A stretch of DNA of 64,000 nucleotides from a bacterium (GTDB lineage: Bacteria; JAJVIF01), in NCBI GenBank assembly GCA_022072165.1, contig JAJVIF010000001.1:461353-525352 (forward strand). The letters run 5' to 3'. Under the pieces are notes generated by a model, which worked only from the letters and a program-made list of their open reading frames with translations, was not told the origin of the DNA and did not search any database. This document shows, piece after piece, positions 31,391-52,972 of the stretch (position 1 is its first letter; each line of letters starts with the position of its first letter). A program made the position numbers and the translations under genes.

Positions 31391-34300
31391 CTACATGTTC
31401 CGCCGATACTCGCCGCCGACCTGGTAAAGCGCGTGGGTGATCTGGCCCAGCGAGGCGACTTTGACCGTCTCCATGAGCTCGGCGAAGAGATTGCCGCCGG
31501 AGAGCGCGACTTCCTGTAGCCGCCGTAACGCTGCTGGCGCCGCGTCTTTGTGCCGCTCCTGAAACGCCCGGGTATTGCGGATGCACTGCTCTTTTTCTTC
31601 GGTGCTGGAGCGACGCAACTCCGTTTTAGGGGGCTCGTAGTCAGGTGCGAGCGTGGCTGGGTCGATGAATGTGTTAACCCCAACCAGCGGTAGTTCTCCG
31701 GAATGCTTGAGATGCTCGTAGTAAAGCGACTCTTCCTGAATCCGGAAACGCTGGTACTGCAGCTCCATGGCTCCCAGGACTCCGCCGCGCTCTGTGAGCC
31801 GGTCGAACTCTGCCAGAACAGCCTCCTCGACCAGTTCCGTCAGCTCCTCGATGATGAACGCCCCCTGCAGGGGATTCTCGTTCTTGGCGAGGCCTAATTC
31901 CCGGTTGATCACGAGCTGGATGGCCATTGCCCGACGCACCGAATCCTCGGTGGGTGTCGTCACGGCTTCGTCGTAAGCGTTGGTGTGCAGTGAGTTGCAG
32001 TTGTCGTAGATCGCCATCAGCGCCTGGAGGGTCGTGCGAATGTCGTTGAACGCCATCTCCTGAGCATGAAGCGACCGGCCAGAGGTCTGGATGTGGTACT
32101 TCAGCATCTGACTCCTGGCTCCAGCACCGTACCGGTCCCGCATGGCAATGGACCAGATGCGACGGGCGACCCGTCCAATGACGGCGTACTCCGGGTCCAG
32201 CCCATTCGAAAAGAAGAAGCTCAGGTTCGGGGCGAAGTCATCGATGTGCATTCCCCGGCTCAGGTAGTACTCCACATAGGTAAAGCCGTTCGCCAGGGTA
32301 AAGGCCAGCTGCGAGATCGGATTTGCGCCCGCTTCAGCGATGTGGTACCCCGAAATGGAGACCGAGTAGTGGTTTCTGACGCCGTTCTGGATGTAGAACT
32401 GCTGGACATCGCCCATGAGCTTCAGGCTGAACTCCGTGGAGAAGATGCAGGTGTTTTGGGCCTGATCTTCCTTGAGGATGTCCGCCTGGACCGTGCCCCG
32501 GACCTGCGTCAGAGTCCAGGCTCTGAGCTCGGCATACTCGGTTTCGGTCAGCGTCCGGCCAAGCTCGGCTTCCTGCTTGCGGACCTGCTGATGAATCGCG
32601 GTGTTGAAGAAGAACGCCAGGATGATCGCCGCCGGACCGTTGATCGTCATCGAAACGGACGTGTTCGGAGCACAGAGATCGAAGCCGTCATAGAGCTTCT
32701 CCATGTCCTCGAGCGTGGCAATGGAGACCCCGGAGACGCCAACCTTGCCGTAGATGTCAGGACGGTAGTCGGGGTCTTCGCCGTAGAGCGTCACGGAATC
32801 GAAAGCGGTGGACAGACGCTTCGCCGGCATGTCCTTGGCGAGGAAATGGAAGCGGGCATTGGTGCGCTCCGGTGGACCCTCGCCGGCAAACATGCGGGTG
32901 GGATCTTCCTGCGTCCGCTTGAAGGGGTAGACACCGGCGGTGTAAGGGAACTCGCCGGGAACATTTTCCAGCAACTGCCATTGCAGGATGAGCCCGTGAT
33001 CGGAATAGTCCGGCAGGATGACTTTCGGGATGAAGAGGTGCGACAGCGACTCTGTGACCTGTTCGACACGCACTTCCTTGTCGCGAACCTGATAGACAAA
33101 CTCGCGACCCTGATACTGCGCCCGTTTGGCTGCCCACTGATCAATCAGTGATTTGTTCGCAGGCGTGAGGGCAGCACTGAAGTCATGCGCTGCCGCACGG
33201 AGCGGTTCGATGTCGGCCTGCGGGTCCCGTTGTCGCAGTATGGCCGCAGCAGCTTCGAGTTGCTGGACCTGTCGTGCCACCTGGGCTTGTGCCCGCGCCT
33301 GGGCTTTGTAGCTCCGGACCGTTTCAGCAATCTCACTCAGGTAGCGCTCACGACGTGGCGGGATGATCCGGGTGGCGACCTCGGTCATCTGTGCGACTGG
33401 GGCATTCGACGCCAGCGATGACTGCCAGGGTTTGCCGGTCTTCTCTTGCAGTCTGCTCAGCAGCGCCAGGTAGAGGGCATTGACGCCGGGGTCATTGAAG
33501 TGCGACGCCATCGTGCCGAAGACCGGCATGGCTTCCAGCGGTTCTGCGAAAGCCTGGCGATTTCGCTGCACCTGTTTCGCGACCGCATGGAAGGCATCCT
33601 CAGAGCCCCGGCGATCGAACTTGTTGACAATCACCAAGTCCGCGAAGTCGAGCATCTCGATCTTTTCCAGCTGTGTCGGCGCGCCATACTCGGCCGTCAT
33701 CACGTAGAGCGTGATGTCTGAGAGCGAAGTGATGGCGCTCGAAGCCTGCCCAATGCCTGAGGTCTCACAAAAGATCAATCCAAAACCAGCGGACCTTGCG
33801 ACCGCCACCGCTTCATCAAGGGCCTGCGAAATCTCTGACCCGGACTCCCGTGTCGCCAGCGATCGCATGTAGATGCGATCCCCCTCGATGGCATTCATCC
33901 GGATCCGGTCGCCCAGCAGGGCACCGCCGGTCTTCTTGCGGGTGGGGTCCACCGACAAAATACAGATGGAGAGCTCGGGAAAGTCGCGGGCGAATCGCAG
34001 GACCAGTTCATCGGTCACGGAGGACTTCCCGGCCCCTCCTGTGCCCGTCAGCCCGATGACCGGGGCTGGAGTAGCTTTGGCCCGGTCTTCAAGTGCAGCC
34101 AGTGCAGCGCGCATCGCTTCGGGAATGTCCGTACCACCAGACGCGACCGTTTCCGCCAGCGTAATGGCTCGGGCGAGGTGTTGCCAGGCGGTCGGTGCCA
34201 ATTGCTTCAGTTCGCCATTGAGCGTTGCCGGGAGGGTCGGAAAGTCACACTCCCGCAGAATCTGGTTGATCATCCCCTGGAGTCCCAGGCGCCGACCGTC

Positions 34301-34672
34301 ATCAGGCGAGAAAATCTTGGCGATGCCGTAGGATTCCAGCTCAGCGATTTCCTCAGGGACAATCACCCCACCGCCACCGCCATAAATCCGGATCTGTGTT
34401 GCGCCCTTTTGCTGGAGAAGATCATGCATGTATTTGAAGAACTCAACGTGCCCACCCTGATAGCTCGAGACGGCTATTCCCTGGGCATCTTCCTGAATCG
34501 CCGCATCCACAATTTCTTCGGCGGAGCGGTTGTGCCCCAGATGGATGACCTCGGCGCCAGAGGCCTGGAGGATCCGGCGCATCACGTTGATCGCGGCGTC
34601 GTGCCCATCGAACAGGGCGGCGGCTGTGACGATGCGAATCTTGTGGGTCGGCTGGTAGACCGTAGTCTCCAT
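31391..34672 (-). CDS. icmF: Fused isobutyryl-CoA mutase
   Basis: The product is 1093 residues and interconverts isobutyryl-CoA and n-butyryl-CoA with adenosylcobalamin. The order is diagnostic of IcmF. The N-terminal B12-binding domain (about 10-140) has [12 protein letters not shown] and GHNRSAEE. The central MeaB-type G-protein chaperone has P-loop [12 protein letters not shown] (about 207) and NKFD. The C-terminal mutase barrel (about 540-1093) has [11 protein letters not shown] and [16 protein letters not shown]. Ordinary methylmalonyl-CoA mutase lacks the inserted GTPase. It lies about 75 bases downstream of sdhB on the same strand and could share transcripts with sdhCAB. Confidence 0.95.
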
Positions 34673-42427: not shown

Positions 42428-45400
42428 CTAGGGGCAACGCGGCTCGGAAATCGAGAAGTTGTCGAAGCCCATATCACCGACGCTGACGACTGTCAGCGCT
42501 GCGCCGAAGTCGTTGCAGGTGTCGGGGGTCGCGTTGAAGTCCGTGGTGACACGGATGCGGACCCGGACGTTGTTTTGTCCCAGATACGCGCCAGGAATCG
42601 CGATTGCGCGCTCCTGCGATCCTGAGGGCTCACCCAGGGTATGAGTGAAGGTCGCAATCGGCGCTCCCCAGGCGGGGATATCACCAGAAGCGGGGTTAAT
42701 CGCCATGTAGACCTGGGTGTTTAGGGTCCCGGAAGTCAGCCCCATGATCTCATCGAATCGGATCACGGCCGTCGCAGGAATAGCAGTGAGGTCCAGCAAG
42801 GGTGAGACGATGTTGAAGTCCGACGAATGCGCCAGGTCGCCAGGAAAGGTGGTGCAGGAACCCAGGTCGCCACCGACAGTCATGGCGTTGCCAGTGACGA
42901 AGCCAGCGGAAGCCGGGCAGATGTTCCAGCCGCCCCAGGGGCCTGGATCGAGGACACAGCCGATAGCCGCATCAGTCTGCGGCAACCCGAAGGTGCTCCA
43001 GTTGTTGGCACCTTCAAAGTTGTCGGAGAAGTAGGTGGTGGGCGGCGGGTTGGGAGTGCCGCCAGTCCAGGTGCCCGCAGAAGTAGCGCGGATGCGGACG
43101 TTGTCGATCCAGGCACCAGCATAGCCCGCAGCACCGTTGAAGTAGCCGAAGGCTGATGGGTCGCGGTACTGGAACCGGACGAGGATCTCCTGCCCGGCGG
43201 AAATGCCTGTGAAGGTCACGGTTGCATTCGGGACGGTGACGGGTACGTCGGTCGTGGTGACGTTGATCGGTGACCCCTGAGCGACCCAGGAGCAGCCTTC
43301 ATCAGTGGAGGTGTAAATCTGGAACGATGCGCCGGCGTTACCGAGCATGTGCAGGTCCCAGACTACGCTGACTTCCGTGGCACCGCAGAGTGTTGGTACC
43401 ACCAGTAGGGGGCTCACGAGGTTGTAGTCGCCATTGGCGCCGTAGTCAGTCACGAAGGCACAGGTGCCCCAGATCGATTCCACGTCCCAGGAGCTACCCC
43501 AATAGTTGCCGTTCATCAGCCCGCCGGAAGCAGCTTCCACGGCCGCGTTGGTACAGGTCACCTGCGAAAAGTTGCCGTAGGTGTCCTCGTCGCCATTCGG
43601 CAGGCCATACACCTCTCCACCCACGAAACCCTCTGCAGAGCCCGCGAAGAGATAGGTGTTGGTGACCAGCCCACAGCCGGGATCGGCCAGGGTGTAGTTC
43701 AGGTCAACCACGATCGGAGTGGCAGCACGCAGCGGATCGTAGTACCGAATCCGGGTCGTCCGGGCTGATGGGCCAGGACCGGGGTTGGTCTGGGCAGTCG
43801 AGGTGTGCAGCACGATCGGCGGGGCCCCCGCAGGATCGAAAGCCGCGACATCCGCAGTAAAGACGCCAGTGTAGTTGTACATGATCTCGTAGAAGACGGG
43901 ATCGCCATCGACGTCGTTCTCGGCATCGAGGTTGTACTGAATGGTGCCACCTGAAGGAATGGTCGGATTAGGACCACCCTGCAGGGTGATAGTGGCAGTC
44001 GGCGGGGTGTTGGCGCTCGCCGGCGCGACTTCATACGGCAGGATGATTTCGATCGGGCTGGCGGCGCGGGCGGGGTCGTAGTACCGCACGCGGGCTTCAC
44101 CAACTAGGTTTGATGCACCCGGGTTGTTCGGAGCCTGACCAGTGAAGAGGACGCTTGGCGGATCCGCCGGATCGACGCCAGTCGCATCGGGAATGAAGCT
44201 GCCGTTGTAGAACGTGTCGATGTCGTAGAGGACGGTGTCGCTCTCCGGATCGCTCTCTGTTACCAGGTTAAAGACGACATTGCCGAGGGCGGGAATGACG
44301 GGATTCGTCCCGGCAGCCAGCTCGACGACTGCGGTGGGGGGATCGTTCGAAATCCCACCAACATTGACGCTGAACGCCTGGAAGGTCTCCAGCGCTGGCT
44401 TCTGTGCCGCGTTGGTGATCAGATTCAGGTCCGGATCCAGCACGAACTCATAGGCCGAGCGGTCCTGGCTGTTGCTGATGTCGGTTGTGCGGAGCATCCC
44501 GCGAACTTCGCCAGCCGACTGTCCGCCGGTGCCGGCGGTGTTCAGGACACTGGCAGTGAAGTAGAGCGCATCGCCAGCCTCGCCGGAGTCCGGCGCGACA
44601 TCGCCACCGATGGCAGTGTCGTCATCGTTGAGATTCAGGGTGACTGCGGAAGTGGTCACCGAGGGAATGTCGACTGTGACAGTCGGCATCCCGGGGCCAC
44701 CGGGCTCCACTGTGGTCGGATCGGAGTCATCGCTGACATCCGGCCGGGTCGTAACATTCGCCCGGGCATCCCAGTCGCGGACTGTGAAGCGGACTTCCGT
44801 TGAAGACAGCGGCACATTTGGCTGCAGCCCGCCGGTCTCGCCACGGTAGGTCACCTTACCAACGTCCAGTGCGCCATAGGGCATGCGATACACGAAGTTC
44901 GCAACGCTCGCTGGCGTGGAGGGGAGGCGATTCGCCCGCTTCTGGGTGGCATTGGTGCCGCCGCGCGGGTCGTTATACTTGGCGAGAATGACCAGATCAA
45001 AGTTCAGGCTGCCACTCAGCTCCGACTTGCGGATCGTGATGCTGCTGGCGGCGGACTGGCCCTGATGCAGGTAGTCAAACCCGGTCCACTGGTCTCGGGT
45101 CGCGCCGATATTGCTGGCTTGCCAGCCATCCTGCGAGCGGTAGTTCCCTTTCGCAAGTCCCAGGTTGCTGATGCCGACGCGGTTGCCATTGGCGCCCAGC
45201 GTTTCATCGACGATCAACTTATAGGGGAAGGCATTGGCGGTCTTGGTAGCCGCCTGGGGGATGGTCCCCTTGGGCTGGACATAACCATCCACGTTGCGCA
45301 GCAGGCGGGCGTTAGCTACCACATCGCCGAAGAACGTGTTGCCGGTAGCTGTCGGGACATCCACCAGGAAGACTGCGCGTCCGGTGATCCCCAGGTCAGC

Positions 45401-45826
45401 GCGATTCGTGGATCCGTTCGGCGGAGCCGAAAGATCGGCCGGAGCCGGGAAGGGGTGGCTGATGACGTAATCGACGATCAGATCGTCTGCAGTCGCGCTG
45501 ATGCCAGTGATGCGAATGTTGCGGGCTGAGAAGAAGTTCTGCAGCGACAGCATGTAGCTGTCATCGGTGGCGGTCACGCCACGGAGGGGCAGGACCTCAC
45601 CGGTGCCAGTGTCCGGATTGATCGCCAGCGTAGCGCCACCCAGGGCACTCATACCGGAGACGCTGCCAGCCAGGGAAGCGTGGTCGTTAAAGATGGGGTT
45701 ATCGAGCAGGTCCAGGGGCGCAGAACCGGAGTGTCCGGGAGTCGCCGGAGTACGGCTTCCCCCAGAACACCCGATTAGCCCCAGCGCCAGCGCAGCCACA
45801 ATGGCCGCACGGGGAGAGCAGAGCAT
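42428..45826 (-). CDS. Giant lipoprotein 5 with Ig-like repeats and jelly-roll domains
   Basis: The product is 1132 residues from ATG 45826, with AGGAGG 11 bases upstream. Lipobox LIGC gives Cys20. The N-terminal 480 residues are a diverged form of the family domain: ISHPFPAPADLSAPP, ADLGITGRAVFLV, FPYKLIVDE, LAKYNDPRGG with RANRLP, and FRVRDWDARA-like. Two repeats at about 494-605 and 605-715 begin DPPTAVV or TPPTATI and contain a D/N-E-x-D segment (cadherin or Ig-like). Two jelly-roll regions (about 715-920 and 930-1132) follow, each with a WD.E.I-type or F.DEIMG strand. It ends with Cys-Pro. Confidence 0.85.
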   Translation of the reverse strand: MLCSPRAAIVAALALGLIGCSGGSRTPATPGHSGSAPLDLLDNPIFNDHASLAGSVSGMSALGGATLAINPDTGTGEVLPLRGVTATDDSYMLSLQNFFSARNIRITGISATADDLIVDYVISHPFPAPADLSAPPNGSTNRADLGITGRAVFLVDVPTATGNTFFGDVVANARLLRNVDGYVQPKGTIPQAATKTANAFPYKLIVDETLGANGNRVGISNLGLAKGNYRSQDGWQASNIGATRDQWTGFDYLHQGQSAASSITIRKSELSGSLNFDLVILAKYNDPRGGTNATQKRANRLPSTPASVANFVYRMPYGALDVGKVTYRGETGGLQPNVPLSSTEVRFTVRDWDARANVTTRPDVSDDSDPTTVEPGGPGMPTVTVDIPSVTTSAVTLNLNDDDTAIGGDVAPDSGEAGDALYFTASVLNTAGTGGQSAGEVRGMLRTTDISNSQDRSAYEFVLDPDLNLITNAAQKPALETFQAFSVNVGGISNDPPTAVVELAAGTNPVIPALGNVVFNLVTESDPESDTVLYDIDTFYNGSFIPDATGVDPADPPSVLFTGQAPNNPGASNLVGEARVRYYDPARAASPIEIILPYEVAPASANTPPTATITLQGGPNPTIPSGGTIQYNLDAENDVDGDPVFYEIMYNYTGVFTADVAAFDPAGAPPIVLHTSTAQTNPGPGPSARTTRIRYYDPLRAATPIVVDLNYTLADPGCGLVTNTYLFAGSAEGFVGGEVYGLPNGDEDTYGNFSQVTCTNAAVEAASGGLMNGNYWGSSWDVESIWGTCAFVTDYGANGDYNLVSPLLVVPTLCGATEVSVVWDLHMLGNAGASFQIYTSTDEGCSWVAQGSPINVTTTDVPVTVPNATVTFTGISAGQEILVRFQYRDPSAFGYFNGAAGYAGAWIDNVRIRATSAGTWTGGTPNPPPTTYFSDNFEGANNWSTFGLPQTDAAIGCVLDPGPWGGWNICPASAGFVTGNAMTVGGDLGSCTTFPGDLAHSSDFNIVSPLLDLTAIPATAVIRFDEIMGLTSGTLNTQVYMAINPASGDIPAWGAPIATFTHTLGEPSGSQERAIAIPGAYLGQNNVRVRIRVTTDFNATPDTCNDFGAALTVVSVGDMGFDNFSISEPRCP

Positions 45827-45968
45827 GGTGATGGAATCCTCCTGTGAGTTCAGCGTCGACACATACACCCACAATTTGGGTGCGTCAGAGCAGACGTGAC
45901 GAAAGGTACAGCCAGTCAGAAGACGGTTGCCAGACTCAGGAGTGTAGCAAAATTATGTCTCCAACCCG

Positions 45969-46408: not shown

Positions 46409-47227
46409 CTAGCGCTGGCAGGTTGGGCAGTAAAAGGTCGATCGCTGCCCCTGGACCAGCCGGACGATTGGTTTGCGACAGCGTGGGCAGGGCCCTCCAG
46501 CCTTCTGATAGACCTGCAGAAAGTGCTGATAGCCCCCCTCCTGATTCCGCGCACCGCGATAGTCATACACCGTCGTCCCCCGCTGCTCAATGGCCAGTTG
46601 CAGGATGCTGACCATGGCCTGATGGATGCGCCGGGCTTCGGGCAGGGTGAGACTGTCGCTGCGTCGCAAGGGCGAAATCCGGGCACGAAAGAGGATTTCG
46701 CTGGCGTAGATGTTCCCGAGTCCGGCGATGCACTGCTGGTCGAGCAATAGCGTTTTGAGCTCCCGTCGACGACCAATGAGGCGGCTGTGCAACGCCCGGG
46801 CATCGAAAGCAGGATCGAGCGGCTCGGGTCCGAGGAGCCGCTCTTCATTCGGCAGAATCTGCGGTGGATACCAGTGCGCTCGTCCAAATTTCCGGACATC
46901 CACAAAGGCCAGGTGCCGTCCCGAGACGAAGCGCATCAGCGCGGAGCAATGCGACTCGTACTGTTCGGGCTCGGGATCCACCAGCCAGCGACCGGTCATT
47001 CGCAGATGCGACCAGACCTGGCTCTGGTCGTCGAGCCAGAAGCGCAGGTACTTCCCGCGTCGCGCCACGGCTGTGATGGCCTTCCCCCGGATCCCCCGTC
47101 CGAAAGCAGCTGGGGTCTGATCGCCGGTCCATTTGGGCCACCGCACGGTGACTTTCTCGATGATCTCACCGGGCAAATCCTCCCGCAGGACCGCTGCCAC
47201 CGCTTCTACTTCCGGGAGTTCTGGCAT
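46409..47227 (-). CDS. mutM: Formamidopyrimidine-DNA glycosylase
   Basis: The product is 272 residues and removes oxidised purines from DNA with an AP-lyase step. It begins PELPEVE, with catalytic Pro2 and Glu3. A Lys in RRGKYLRFWL, the SHLRMTGRW segment, VDVRKFGR and the helix-two-turn-helix QQCIAGLGNIYASEIL follow. The C-terminal zinc finger is CPRCRKPI...CPTCQ. Its length and motifs are ordinary. Confidence 0.96.
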   Translation of the reverse strand: MPELPEVEAVAAVLREDLPGEIIEKVTVRWPKWTGDQTPAAFGRGIRGKAITAVARRGKYLRFWLDDQSQVWSHLRMTGRWLVDPEPEQYESHCSALMRFVSGRHLAFVDVRKFGRAHWYPPQILPNEERLLGPEPLDPAFDARALHSRLIGRRRELKTLLLDQQCIAGLGNIYASEILFRARISPLRRSDSLTLPEARRIHQAMVSILQLAIEQRGTTVYDYRGARNQEGGYQHFLQVYQKAGGPCPRCRKPIVRLVQGQRSTFYCPTCQR

Positions 47228-47332: not shown

Positions 47333-47986
47333 ATGGCGAACCTCGCAATCCTCGACTTCGGCTTTGGCGGCGCCCTGGCGCTGGAAAATGCGCTGCTGGC
47401 CACCGGAGCCGAGGTGGCACGTCTGGAGCATGGTCTGACCGCCCACGCATACGACGCTCTCGTGCTCACGGGATATGGGCGCTTCGGCGAAGCCATGCGC
47501 ACCCTGGAGGGAGTCGGCATGTTCAGCGCCCTCTGGAACTTTTACGAAGAGGTGCGCAAACCTATTCTGGGCATCAGCCTCGGGATGCACATGCTGGCCA
47601 GCGGCTCTGAAGAATCCCCGGGACAGCCGGGCCTGAATATTCTTCCCGGCACAGCGCGATCAATGCCCAGCCGTATTGGCAAGCCCTACACCGGCTGGCA
47701 CCGGATGGAGCTCGATCTGGACGATCCCCTGTTCGAGGGCATCGATCCTCTGGTCGAGTGGCACTTTACACAGGACTACATGATCCTCAGTTCCAATCTG
47801 CAAAAGAGCCTGGCGGGCGAGTACACCCTGGGGGGCTTGCCGACTGCCGGAGCGCTGCGACGCGGGTCGGTCTGGGGGTTGCAATGTGACCCGGTGAAGT
47901 CTGGCGAAGCGGGCCAGCAGCTGCTGAACAACTTTGTTGCCCTCGTGGACTCTCTGATACCGGCAACTTCCTCCGGCGAGGGGTAG
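47333..47986 (+). CDS. HisH-like protein with lost glutaminase triad
   Basis: The product is 217 residues. It aligns end to end with HisH, the glutaminase subunit of imidazole-glycerol-phosphate synthase: LAILDFGFGG, PILGISLGMHMLASGSEES, TGWHRM, LFEGIDPLVEWHFTQDY and WGLQCDPVKSGEAGQQLLNNF. The nucleophile Cys is Ser82, the catalytic His is Asp186 and the Glu is Val188, so glutamine hydrolysis is not expected. The fold-stabilising residues around these sites remain. Upstream AGGGAC serves as a weak ribosome site. An MFS carrier and a HisA-like protein follow. It is not a normal hisH and I give no symbol. Confidence 0.85.
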   Translation: MANLAILDFGFGGALALENALLATGAEVARLEHGLTAHAYDALVLTGYGRFGEAMRTLEGVGMFSALWNFYEEVRKPILGISLGMHMLASGSEESPGQPGLNILPGTARSMPSRIGKPYTGWHRMELDLDDPLFEGIDPLVEWHFTQDYMILSSNLQKSLAGEYTLGGLPTAGALRRGSVWGLQCDPVKSGEAGQQLLNNFVALVDSLIPATSSGEG

Positions 47987-48042
47987 ATCCCATCGCCCCC
48001 CAGCCGCCGCCACCGATACCAGAGCGTATCGGGTATCTGGCA

Positions 48043-49296
48043 TTGCTCCGGTCGGACCGGCGCTACCGGGATCTGTGTCTCGCGAACATCATCAGTCTGC
48101 TCGGCGACTGGCTGGATCTGATTGCGCTCACGGAACTGCTCGTCAATCTGGCCAAGCTGCCAGAATCGCGCATCACCAGTGCGGCAGCGCTGGCCGGGAT
48201 CATGATCGCGCGCTTCCTGCCGAACGTGATCTTCGGCCCTACGGCAGGCAACATTGCTGATCGCTATCCCCGCCATCAGGTCATGCGCTGGGCCAATCTC
48301 GTGGCAGCGGTCCTGGTGCTGTTGATGTTGCCGTTTCTGACCCCGGAGGGGATCCCGGTCATCATCGGGCTGACCTTCCTCAAGATGGGGACGCAGGCGT
48401 TCTATCTCCCTGCAAATCAGGCTGCGGTACCGATGATCATCCCGCCGGAGCATCTGACAGTGGCGAATGCGCTGGGTGCGACGATCTGGAGCGTGATGCT
48501 GGCCGTGGGAGCAGTCGCAGGGGCAGTCCTGGTGCAATGGCTCGGACCGCAACTGGCGCTGGTGCTGGATGCTCTGACTTTTGTCATCGCGAACTTCTTC
48601 CTGCTGCGACTCAATCTGCCTGCAGCGAACCAGGATGCGCCACGTCGCGGAGGCTGGGCGGACTTTCTGTCGGGGCTGCGGTTCCTCCGGCAGAATCCGC
48701 ATCTCGGGAAACCGCTCCTGGTGAAGACGATATTGGGGATGTCCGGAGGAGCCATCCTCTATCCACTACTCGCGGAATACGCCTGGCCCCGACAAAAGCC
48801 CGATGGGACACTCGATATCTCGTATGTCACGGGCGTGCTCTACTTTGCCTTCGGGCTCGGAACACTCATTGGTCCACTGTTGATGCGACGTCTTGGGACC
48901 GCCGGGCCAGTCGAGATGTTCCGGCGTCTGGGACTCTGCTTCCTCGTCACAGGAGGCTTTGGCATCCTCTTCCCGCTGTCCAGCTCGATCGAACTGGCGT
49001 TCGTGCTGGTGGTGTTGTCATCCATGGGACGCTCGGTCCTGTGGGTGTATTCCGCCACGCTGTTGCAGTTGCTGACGCCCGACAGCTTCCGGGGACGAGT
49101 GTTCGCAGTCGAGTTTGCGCTGATGACCCTCGGCAGTTCCATCGCGATTCTGATCAGCCAACGGGCGATCGATCAGGGGCTCCTCGACACCCGGGGACTC
49201 GGCGTTGCACTTGGCATTTTCGCAGTGCTCGGCGGTCTGCCGTACTTCGCCTATCTGAAGAAGTCCGCCAATACCGGAACCGGTGTCCGAGATTAG
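48043..49296 (+). CDS. MFS transporter
   Basis: The product is 417 residues with about 12 membrane helices. The first helix begins DLCLANIISLLGDWLD, and the GPTAGNIADRYPRHQVM loop is the MFS signature between helices 2 and 3. This resembles the MFS_3/enterobactin-exporter subfamily. No ATG opens the frame; TTG 48043 is my choice and CTG 48037 is close by. It lies between the HisH-like and HisA-like genes with gaps of 56 and 35 bases, so the three are probably one transcript. The substrate is unknown. Confidence 0.88.
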   Translation: MLRSDRRYRDLCLANIISLLGDWLDLIALTELLVNLAKLPESRITSAAALAGIMIARFLPNVIFGPTAGNIADRYPRHQVMRWANLVAAVLVLLMLPFLTPEGIPVIIGLTFLKMGTQAFYLPANQAAVPMIIPPEHLTVANALGATIWSVMLAVGAVAGAVLVQWLGPQLALVLDALTFVIANFFLLRLNLPAANQDAPRRGGWADFLSGLRFLRQNPHLGKPLLVKTILGMSGGAILYPLLAEYAWPRQKPDGTLDISYVTGVLYFAFGLGTLIGPLLMRRLGTAGPVEMFRRLGLCFLVTGGFGILFPLSSSIELAFVLVVLSSMGRSVLWVYSATLLQLLTPDSFRGRVFAVEFALMTLGSSIAILISQRAIDQGLLDTRGLGVALGIFAVLGGLPYFAYLKKSANTGTGVRD

Positions 49297-49331
49297 CCAG
49301 CCCGTAAGGAGAGGCGGTTACACTCCGGTCC

Positions 49332-50033
49332 GTGACTCTCCTGGTCCCGATGATTCCGGTCATGGATGCGGTCGCGGCGGAGCCCGATAGCCGTCAGCCG
49401 CACGGGATACGCTATTGGTCCACCGACCTCAGGGCACTGATTGCCGATTACGCCGCTGCTGGAGTCCAATGGGTCCATTTGCAGGATGTCGAGGGGCGAC
49501 GCCTCGGACGGCTCGTGGAGTCCTGTGCAGTCACGGAAATCGCCGTGGTCAAGGAAATCATCGTCTCGGTCGAAGGGGGCATCCGGACCTGGCAGGATGC
49601 CCGTCTCTATCTGGGACAGGCGGTGGATCTGGTCTACCTCGGAGCGGCTGATGGCTGGCCACCGGTCTTCCATACATTGGGGCAGCAGGAAGTCGAGCGC
49701 CGACTTCTCTATGAAGTGCCTGTCCAGGCGGAATGGGCCGCTCGGGAAGCCGTGATAGAAACCGAACTCGCGCATCTCACCAGTCGTGGAGTGATCCCGG
49801 TGCTGACCTCGACCCTCCCGCTTCCCGAGCTGGTCCGGGCTGGCAATCTCGCGGGGGTTGCCACCAGACATCGCCTGGTGCTGCGTCCGGCAGCTGTCGG
49901 ATCGCTGGAAGAGTGGGAAGCAGGACTGCTCCTGACCGGAGGGTTTGTCCAGGGCATTATGGTGGCGCAGAGATGCATCGATCGCCTGGGACTGGCCAAT
50001 ATGCTGGCAGTCCTGCGTCAGATACCCCGCTGA
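49332..50033 (+). CDS. HisA-like TIM-barrel protein, diverged
   Basis: The product is 233 residues from GTG 49332 (ATG 49350 is an alternative). The N-terminal half follows HisA/HisF: VPMIPVMDAVA with the first catalytic-position Asp kept, AAGVQWVHLQDVEG, and VEGGIRTWQDARLYL. Near the end LTGGFVQGIMVAQRCIDRLG matches the last phosphate-binding region. The second catalytic Asp region (SLDTRGG in Thermotoga HisA) is replaced by AEWAAREAV. It is therefore unlikely to be a working HisA. It is paired with a degenerate HisH-like protein two genes upstream. Confidence 0.75.
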   Translation: MTLLVPMIPVMDAVAAEPDSRQPHGIRYWSTDLRALIADYAAAGVQWVHLQDVEGRRLGRLVESCAVTEIAVVKEIIVSVEGGIRTWQDARLYLGQAVDLVYLGAADGWPPVFHTLGQQEVERRLLYEVPVQAEWAAREAVIETELAHLTSRGVIPVLTSTLPLPELVRAGNLAGVATRHRLVLRPAAVGSLEEWEAGLLLTGGFVQGIMVAQRCIDRLGLANMLAVLRQIPR

Positions 50034-50046
50034 AACAGCGCTGTTG

Positions 50047-52398
50047 TCAGAAAGAAGCGGCGGCCTTGTCGCCAGGCGCTCCCTCATCTGCCAGTGCAGG
50101 AGCCTGTGACCCCACCTGCCATGTCGTCGTGCGGGTCGCCATGAGCGGAATGGGACCGCTTCCCAGATTCACTCGCTGACGCAGCAACTCTGCCCGAAGC
50201 AGGCGGTAAGGAAGGGCCCTCGGCGGGACACCCTCCTGGAGACTCACCGCAGCCGCAACTCCGGCGGCCTGTCCAGTGGCGGCAGCAACAGGCTGGATAC
50301 GAGCAGAGCCCAGCGCGATGTGCGTCACGCTGATGCAGCGACCCCCCATGAGGAGGTTGTCAATGACCTTCGGTACCAGGCTGCGATAAGGGATGTCGTA
50401 GGACAAGCCATCTTCCAGGTCGAGCCCGCTAATGCCACAGCCCGTGTAGTCCGCGCAGTGAATATCGATGCCGAAGCTCCCGCGGGCGATGACATCCGGG
50501 AACTTGGTCGCGTGGATCACATCTTCGCCGGTGAGGATGTACTCCCCGATGATGCGCCGGGACTCCCGGACGCCGATCTGTGTGGCTGTTTCCTGCAGGA
50601 AGGAGTCCTTGAACCCAGGGACATACTTCTTCAGGAAAGTCGCCAGCTGCTGGACCTGCCGCCGGGACTCCACTTCGGCGAATGTCAGGTCCAGGGCACT
50701 CGTTGTGTCGACCTCAAAGACTCTGGTCGCGTTGATGCTCACGACTCCCGGGTTCGTGGTTTTCTCGAAGTAAATGGTGGAAATCGGCAAATCCGGATGG
50801 AGATCGCCTTTGGCTTTGCCCTGCTTGAAGAGATCCGCGAACAGATACTCCGCCGGAATCTGCTGGTCATAGCGCACCAGTCGCCGGTTCTGCTCCCGGA
50901 ACGCAGTCTGATAATCCACGTTGCCCATGCGGAAAAAGAGGGTGACAGCCTGACCATAGATGTCGAAACCGCGTCCCATCTCGAACGGCGCGTTGGCGTA
51001 CTTGGCGATGTCGCCATCGCCGGTGCAGTCCACCACACGCTTCGCTTCGATGGCGATCGTGCCGGACTTGTTGTAGGTCACGACGCCTTCAATGGCGTTG
51101 CCGTTCATCAGTGCGCCGCCCACCCAGGAGTGGAGCAACAATTGTGAGCCAGATTCGATCACCATCTCCTGGAGGACCATCTTCAGGGCTTCTTTGTCGA
51201 AATTGATCACCGAGGGGTTACCAGGAGCCCGACTCGCTTCGCTCCGGGAAGCCAGCCGGGTGTAGTAGTCCATGAAGACCCCTTCGATGATCTGCTCGCC
51301 ACCGGCCATGCTCGGCATCCAGGGATAGACCATCGCGGCAGTCCCCATGCCTCCCAAAAAGCCATTGGCCTCCACCAGCAATGTTTTCGCCTTTGCCCTG
51401 GCCGATCCGATTGCGGCGCTGCAGCCTGCCATGCCGCCCCCGGCAACCACGACATCTGTCGTGATGACACCGTCGACGTCATACCCGTACTTCGCCTTAA
51501 TGCGGGCTTTGGCAGCTTCAGAGTCGTCGATGCGAGGGATGTACTTCGCCTTCGGTTCCGCCGAAATCGGCAGGCGGGTGGTCCAGGCTCCACTGTCCCG
51601 TTCCAGCATGCTGATAATGCCGGCCGCATCAGGACCCCGTAGTTGCAGACGGTCGATGAGGATGGTGTTAATGTCGACCATCGAGTTGTCGATCTGTTTG
51701 AAGGAGAGTCGCTCGACTTTGGAAATATCCACGCCCTGACTGATCGCTCGTTGCAGGGGCCAGCGCCAGGCGAACCACTGTCCGGGAGTCAGAGTCAGCA
51801 TCTGGACGGCACGGTTTTTGTTGACATCCGCCAGGACGACCTGCAGGGTGACCGGAAACTGCTCGGTGTTGTAGAGGAGCGCCCCGATGCTCCTGAAGCT
51901 TGACCAGTCACGGACGCGTCCGCGATCATCGGAAAAGAGCACGTGAAAGTACGCTGCTTTCCCCGAAGGCACCGCATTGCGGTAGAAGGTCACGCTCGAG
52001 GCACCTGCCCCATCGTGGGCATTCGTGGTGTGCTCGACCAGCACATTGACCTCGCCAAAGACAAATCGCGCCAGTTCACCTGCCTCTTCAAAGTCAAAGA
52101 GGCTCAGTACATATTCATCGCCATCCGGCTCGAGGCCGTAGGGCATGTGGGTCTCGGCATGATGCAGCGGAGCGCCCTGGGCGGAGAGGTGCGGCTCGAC
52201 CACATCCAGTCCGGCGGAGTGGTCTGCATCGCCCACCCTGGAGGACCCCGCATCCGGTGCTGATTCAGCGACGGCTGGAGTTTGCGAGAATGCCGGGAGC
52301 ATGAGCCAGCAGAGCAGTGTCAGTATCAGTGACCAGCCACGCCAGGGCGTCGCCCCTGAGACGGCGAGGCTGGCCGAGGAAATAGCGTTTGTCCGCAT
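50047..52398 (-). CDS. Secreted FAD-dependent oxidoreductase with N-terminal beta-sandwich domain
   Basis: The product is 783 residues from ATG 52398. A signal peptide (WSLILTLLCWLMLPAFSQT) leads to a beta-rich region (about 75-260; LFDFEEAGELARF, FHVLFSDDRGRVRDW, WFAWRWPL) that looks like a carbohydrate-binding jelly-roll. The FAD domain starts at TTDVVVAGGGMAGCSAAIG (about 300), then LVEANGFLGGMGTAAMV, VVDCTGDGDIAKYANAPFEMG and the late LLMGGRCIS.T.IALGSARIQP. This matches the FAD_oxidored family found in polysaccharide-degrading bacteria. Its ATG overlaps the divergent ATG at 52397 in the tetramer CATG. Confidence 0.85.
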   Translation of the reverse strand: MRTNAISSASLAVSGATPWRGWSLILTLLCWLMLPAFSQTPAVAESAPDAGSSRVGDADHSAGLDVVEPHLSAQGAPLHHAETHMPYGLEPDGDEYVLSLFDFEEAGELARFVFGEVNVLVEHTTNAHDGAGASSVTFYRNAVPSGKAAYFHVLFSDDRGRVRDWSSFRSIGALLYNTEQFPVTLQVVLADVNKNRAVQMLTLTPGQWFAWRWPLQRAISQGVDISKVERLSFKQIDNSMVDINTILIDRLQLRGPDAAGIISMLERDSGAWTTRLPISAEPKAKYIPRIDDSEAAKARIKAKYGYDVDGVITTDVVVAGGGMAGCSAAIGSARAKAKTLLVEANGFLGGMGTAAMVYPWMPSMAGGEQIIEGVFMDYYTRLASRSEASRAPGNPSVINFDKEALKMVLQEMVIESGSQLLLHSWVGGALMNGNAIEGVVTYNKSGTIAIEAKRVVDCTGDGDIAKYANAPFEMGRGFDIYGQAVTLFFRMGNVDYQTAFREQNRRLVRYDQQIPAEYLFADLFKQGKAKGDLHPDLPISTIYFEKTTNPGVVSINATRVFEVDTTSALDLTFAEVESRRQVQQLATFLKKYVPGFKDSFLQETATQIGVRESRRIIGEYILTGEDVIHATKFPDVIARGSFGIDIHCADYTGCGISGLDLEDGLSYDIPYRSLVPKVIDNLLMGGRCISVTHIALGSARIQPVAAATGQAAGVAAAVSLQEGVPPRALPYRLLRAELLRQRVNLGSGPIPLMATRTTTWQVGSQAPALADEGAPGDKAAASF

Positions 52399-52972
52399 GA
52401 AGCGCTTCAACAAATGGCGACTTCGCTTTGGCTGGGTGCTGACTGCGGCGATCTTTGGGCTCGCGCCCGCTCCGTCCTTGGCATGGCTCATTGCCGGGTG
52501 CCTCCTTGTGTCGGTCGGCGTGGTCGTACGCATCCTGGCAGCCGGTACCCTGACGAAGATCGATACCCTCACCACTCACGGGGTGTACGCGGCTACCCGG
52601 AATCCGCTCTACCTTGGGAGTCTGCTGGTCGGGCTCGGTTTTGGCTGCCTGGGGGGCCATTGGCTGTGGCCCCTGAGCGGTCTGCTCTTCTTCAGTCTGA
52701 TTTACCGGGAGATCATCCTAGCAGAGGAGCGGTTTCTGAGCTGCCGTTATGGGGAGAACTTCCACACTTACTGTCAGCAAACCCCCCGGCTGTTGCCGAA
52801 TCCTGCGAAATTTCTGAGAGAAGGACTGCGTGGGTTTGCCTGGGACCGGGTCTACCAGAACAACGAAATGCGGAACATCAGGGCGACCGGGGCTTTTTTG
52901 GCCTGCATGGCACTGAAAGTCTGGTGGCTCCCTGCCGGGACCTGGTGGACCACCGCTAGAATCGTCCCATGA
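52397..52972 (+). CDS. Isoprenylcysteine-carboxyl-methyltransferase-like membrane protein
   Basis: The product is 191 residues with four to five membrane helices. The ICMT/PEMT signature is present: THGVYAATRNPLYLGSLL, then REIILAEERFLSCRYGENF, and a YCQQTPRLLP end. Bacterial members methylate small membrane-associated substrates; the true one is unknown. The start is uncertain because no good ribosome site precedes ATG 52397 and an earlier ATG (52301) overlaps the divergent gene. Its stop overlaps the next start as ATGA. Confidence 0.82.
   Translation: MKRFNKWRLRFGWVLTAAIFGLAPAPSLAWLIAGCLLVSVGVVVRILAAGTLTKIDTLTTHGVYAATRNPLYLGSLLVGLGFGCLGGHWLWPLSGLLFFSLIYREIILAEERFLSCRYGENFHTYCQQTPRLLPNPAKFLREGLRGFAWDRVYQNNEMRNIRATGAFLACMALKVWWLPAGTWWTTARIVP

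Follow-up and report, generated by a model that had tools for sequence, protein, structure and literature searches.

Why would a bacterium carry homologues of two enzymes of histidine biosynthesis that lack the catalytic residues of their families, with a transporter gene between them? The question is raised by a directon at 47333-50033 of a 64,000-nt window (the whole stretch of DNA that was analysed), in which three genes follow one another on the + strand in the order psH-MFS-psA. The first, psH (47333..47986, + strand, 217 aa), encodes a HisH-like pseudo-glutaminase, and the last, psA (49332..50033, + strand, 233 aa), a (beta-alpha)8 barrel of the HisA family. We lean, with little more than even confidence, towards a reading drawn from sequence comparison: psH and psA may be remnants of a his operon that were kept as non-catalytic proteins after the pathway was lost.

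Organization of the Locus

A preliminary description had placed three ORFs here, closely spaced on one strand and with nothing but a transporter between the outer two, and this layout holds. A single MFS gene (48043..49296, + strand, 417 aa, with a likely TTG start) separates psH from psA, the intergenic gaps being 56 bp (psH/MFS gene) and 35 bp (MFS gene/psA). The three genes are presumably co-transcribed; a search covering promoters of the sigma-70 types recognised none for the directon. Upstream, the directon is bounded by the divergent mutM gene (46409..47227, - strand) for formamidopyrimidine-DNA glycosylase (Pfam Fapy_DNA_glyco and H2TH), and downstream by a convergent gene for a FAD-dependent oxidoreductase (50047..52575, - strand; PF12831, 401 bits). 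The MFS protein matches PF07690 (105 bits), TIGR00900 (148.7 bits) and also the MefB and EntS models, the matches to the last three all lying under the cut-offs of those models; by sequence it resembles exporters of the drug/siderophore type. A homologue of the MFS gene is present in one relative of the same class, but is not syntenic there.

Two other genes of the window may be mentioned. A large lipoprotein-like ORF at 42428-45874 (- strand) has no Pfam match and shares motifs (PLRG ... HPFP) with an ORF of the same-class genome G001 (L053:1-510, - strand); the two perhaps represent a class-specific surface protein family. The gene at 31391-34672 (- strand) encodes a methylmalonyl-CoA mutase fused to a MeaB-like GTPase and a B12-binding domain (IcmF-like).

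A HisH Homologue without the Glutaminase Triad

Homology of psH to HisH (E = 3e-27) extends over the full length of the protein. The match to TIGR01855 covers model positions 2-197 of 198 and scores 95.7 bits, under the curated cut-off of 105.4. As first described, Ser82, Asp186 and Val188 occupy the columns of the catalytic triad, which hold Cys, His and Glu in 89/89 HisH sequences of the alignment. Other residues invariant in all 89 are altered as well (N13 to G, P46 to T, H147 to Q and S148 to D), as is Y144, now His in a column where 88/89 HisH sequences have Tyr, and the oxyanion strand reads TGYG in place of PGVG. In the active state of HisH, hN12 touches hE180 and fD98, and hV51 belongs to the oxyanion switch (PMC8115485). 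Since residues are altered at these very places, the glutaminase machinery of psH is, to judge from its sequence, dismantled.

The losses thus extend across the active site as a whole and leave many residues of the fold in place. These include the family residues G47, G49, G84, W122, P187, K189 and S190, and 31 of the 52 near-invariant HisH columns are kept. Positions linked to HisF contact or coupling give a mixed picture: W122 and K189 are kept, and the N12 and Y138 positions are altered. The nucleophile turn also has a recognizable counterpart, GISLG, which is GxSxG-like with Ser82 for Cys.

A HisA-Type Barrel

psA scores 34.2 bits against PF00977 (cut-off 23.6, E = 2.4e-8), in a match that spans only residues 32-106, the N-terminal half. 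Against TIGR00007 (HisA) it reaches 31.1 bits (cut-off 228.95) and against the HisF model TIGR00735 only 11 bits, so that by these scores it prefers HisA to HisF. With the E value of psH at 3e-27 and that of psA over the Pfam cut-off, the resemblance of the two sequences to their families is not due to chance.

The barrel was said to have kept the GGIRT loop and the first catalytic Asp and to have lost the second. The loop is indeed there and the beta5 Asp is gone: Pro130 stands where all 67 HisA/HisF-family sequences have Asp. The first Asp is not confirmed. In a gapless alignment Pro9 occupies the beta1 catalytic column (Asp in 60 of the 67), a register with which the predicted secondary structure agrees, and Asp12 (IPxxD) reaches the column only via a shift of three residues; the beta1 Asp is therefore probably lost too. 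The beta6 TD/RDG, beta7 ASGG and beta8 GKA motifs are missing, and 19 of 26 near-invariant HisA columns are not retained. As for phosphate binding, the N-terminal site of PriA is formed by Arg85 and Thr105 (PMC13055916). psA keeps the GGIRT/GGIR loop of beta3 and Arg85; the Thr of this site is replaced by Ala105, and SGG and GKA are gone.

AF2 models give psH (pLDDT 91.2) a class I amidotransferase fold, with solved HisH structures as best PDB matches in Foldseek (TM 0.82-0.85), and psA (pLDDT 90.4) eight barrel strands, with HisA as best PDB folds (TM about 0.75); these folds are favoured by the input alignments, which were built from homologues of HisH and HisA, and the models are not independent of the assignment. 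Sequences and models together, both proteins appear to have kept their folds and lost catalysis.

Histidine and Tryptophan Pathways in the Genome and the Class

The genome (3.26 Mb, 99.1% complete, 4 contigs) was surveyed by family searches, on which statements of gene absence rest. These gave no match for hisG, hisD, hisI or hisF, nor for a second hisA or hisH; PF00977 finds psA only, its other match being PyrD (L002), which was considered as a second HisA/HisF and rejected. Separate intact copies of hisH, hisA and hisF, which the preliminary description had looked to, were thus not found. Each search gave matches in 13 or 14 of 14 control genomes. One control, Bacillus subtilis, was without a match for hisD, hisG and hisI, genes that the species is known to possess, and the control genome or the search may miss them there. 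A single negative is accordingly not absolute, but the five families agree. From these searches the histidine pathway is most likely absent from the genome, and the organism is probably auxotrophic for histidine. Lack of any other hisH or hisA in a histidine prototroph would have spoken against proteins kept for another task; no other copies were found, yet the pathway's remaining genes are missing as well, so that this combination does not apply.

Three genomes of the same class (G001-G003, 82-92% complete) have no HisA/HisF, HisH or HisI match, so that there, too, the histidine pathway is largely or wholly lacking. The matches obtained in class relatives belong elsewhere: those to the HisH profile are PdxT (L058, L059) and GuaA (L060), and those to PF00977 are PyrD (L054), ThiG (L055) and a flavin oxidoreductase (L056), all named from sequence. 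In G001, with otherwise no detected his genes, 45 residues match the HisG catalytic domain (positions 111-155, 35.5 bits) within an open frame of 95 codons (contig C301:18507-18647; L053:1501-1641); this would seem to be either what remains of a hisG gene or a stray piece. trpC and trpF are likewise without a match in the family searches of the genome under study, and the same is true of G001-G003; the class may therefore be auxotrophic for several amino acids.

The state of the pathway bears on what the pair could bind. With hisG, hisD, hisI and hisF missing, the cell should produce neither ProFAR nor PRFAR. Neither should be on hand as a ligand, and for this reason the sensing of a histidine-pathway intermediate, as first proposed, is unlikely. 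What stands of the proposal that the folds serve another task is that they appear to persist without catalysis, in what look like normal coding genes of one directon.

Origin of the Pair

Of 80 reference loci, 65 have hisA downstream of hisH and on its strand, 54 of them within 200 bp. Given this order, psH-MFS-psA has the look of what is left of a his operon, into which the MFS gene was probably inserted between the hisH- and hisA-derived genes. We infer that the pair descends from such an operon and was not acquired by transfer. A mobile-element origin was rejected, as plasmid matches are all <60% identical and the named ones are ordinary hisH or hisA; psH and psA have no relatives in the viral collection IMG/VR, and a role in anti-phage defence was dismissed for want of a PADLOC match.

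psA has no orthologue in 385 genomes, where only psA itself exceeds 34 bits and the next three best matches inspected are ordinary HisA. psH alone gave no match in the genome collection; when it was aligned with real HisH as the query, the sequences returned from the collection were all <=38% identical, and none is an orthologue. Conserved synteny of the trio, to which the preliminary description had pointed as a check, did not emerge, no homologue in the genomes searched keeping the order psH-MFS-psA.

In the scenario that we favour, an ancestor would have had HisH and HisA encoded in a his operon in the order hisH-hisA. The lineage would then have lost histidine biosynthesis, and the two genes would have been retained as non-catalytic proteins, with an MFS exporter now between them. 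Their present role may be one of binding or scaffolding in aid or control of the exporter, and the HisH-like protein and the barrel may perhaps pair in the way that HisH pairs with HisF. There is good support for the inactivity of both proteins and for loss of the pathway; a new non-catalytic role, possibly involving the exporter, is our conjecture.

Relics, Changed Enzymes or Retained Proteins

psH and psA could instead be recent relics, functionless and drifting since the loss of the pathway, with frames that happen to be still unbroken. The missing pathway, the mere 7 of 26 near-invariant HisA columns left in psA, the lack of orthologues in relatives and the 45-aa hisG fragment in a same-class genome would all suit such relics. 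Both frames are, however, open over their whole length, and codon use is like that of live genes: psH scores 0.21 and psA 0.18, neighbours score 0.15-0.32, and off-frame scores are mostly near or below zero, although the antisense frame of psA reaches 0.145. When neutral change of 20% of bases was simulated, frames were still open in 2.7% of cases for psH and 0.3% for psA. Because so few frames stay open and codon scores are neighbour-like, the sequences argue against long neutral drift. Nor would drift readily account for losses in psH that comprise its entire active site and spare much of its fold. We consider relics unlikely, if far from negligible.

Catalysis of some other reaction by the pair, for instance within a small-molecule pathway that ends in export of its product by the MFS protein, is an idea that we rate as rather improbable. 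Ser82 in GISLG, where the nucleophile turn persists with Ser for Cys, could serve as nucleophile. In the barrel, a phosphorylated ligand might bind at the GGIR loop, Arg85 of the N-terminal phosphate site being kept. The exporter-like MFS protein would fit such a pathway, and there is a parallel in the PriA and HisG homologues recruited into nucleoside antibiotic clusters (PMC13055916). Yet the remaining triad positions offer neither His nor Glu, of the two phosphate sites the second is missing and the first has Ala105 for Thr, and the directon holds no other biosynthetic genes. A pseudo-IGPS, in which an inactive HisH and an inactive HisA-type barrel form a heterodimer resembling HisH-HisF that binds a phosphorylated ligand and controls the MFS exporter, so that a dead biosynthetic complex would have become a sensor, is a long shot. 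That psA fills a gap in tryptophan synthesis as a TrpF (PRA isomerase), like PriA, would suit a genome with no detected trpF, but was rejected as most improbable because trpC is missing as well and psA no longer has the catalytic Asp of beta5.

The reading as retained non-catalytic proteins has consequences beyond this locus. If psH and psA are expressed and selected, they would be a rare instance of two neighbouring enzymes outliving their pathway, and doing so without catalysis. Whether an ammonia-channelling complex lends itself to reuse for binding or regulation could then be tested directly. As relics, they would instead mark the pathway's loss in this class.

Comparison with Known Systems

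No pair of this kind was found described in the literature, and the comparison is best made for each protein. psH resembles HisH (TIGR01855; 1GPW, 7AC8, 4GUD) in its full-length homology, its predicted fold and the equivalents of hW123 and hK181. Unlike HisH, it has no Cys-His-Glu triad, its PGVG strand is altered, hN12 is lost and the genome has no detected HisF. psA shares with HisA/PriA (PF00977, TIGR00007) a predicted (beta-alpha)8 barrel, similarity in the N-terminal half and the GGIR loop, but differs in the loss of the beta5 Asp, the probable loss of the beta1 Asp and the loss of the C-terminal phosphate site.

By analogy, the closest precedent for psA would be PriA of Actinomycetaceae, a HisA-type barrel that was kept and diverged during the loss of the his and trp pathways (PMC5404923). 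The study makes no mention of HisH, and its proteins stayed catalytic: SubHisA2 and SubTrpF retain their catalytic residues, and their isomerase activity is measurable (PMC5404923), whereas psA lacks the beta5 Asp. AdeK, the PriA homologue of adechlorin clusters, is like psA a HisA-family barrel outside primary metabolism but, unlike psA, is active as HisA and lies inside a biosynthetic cluster (PMC13055916).
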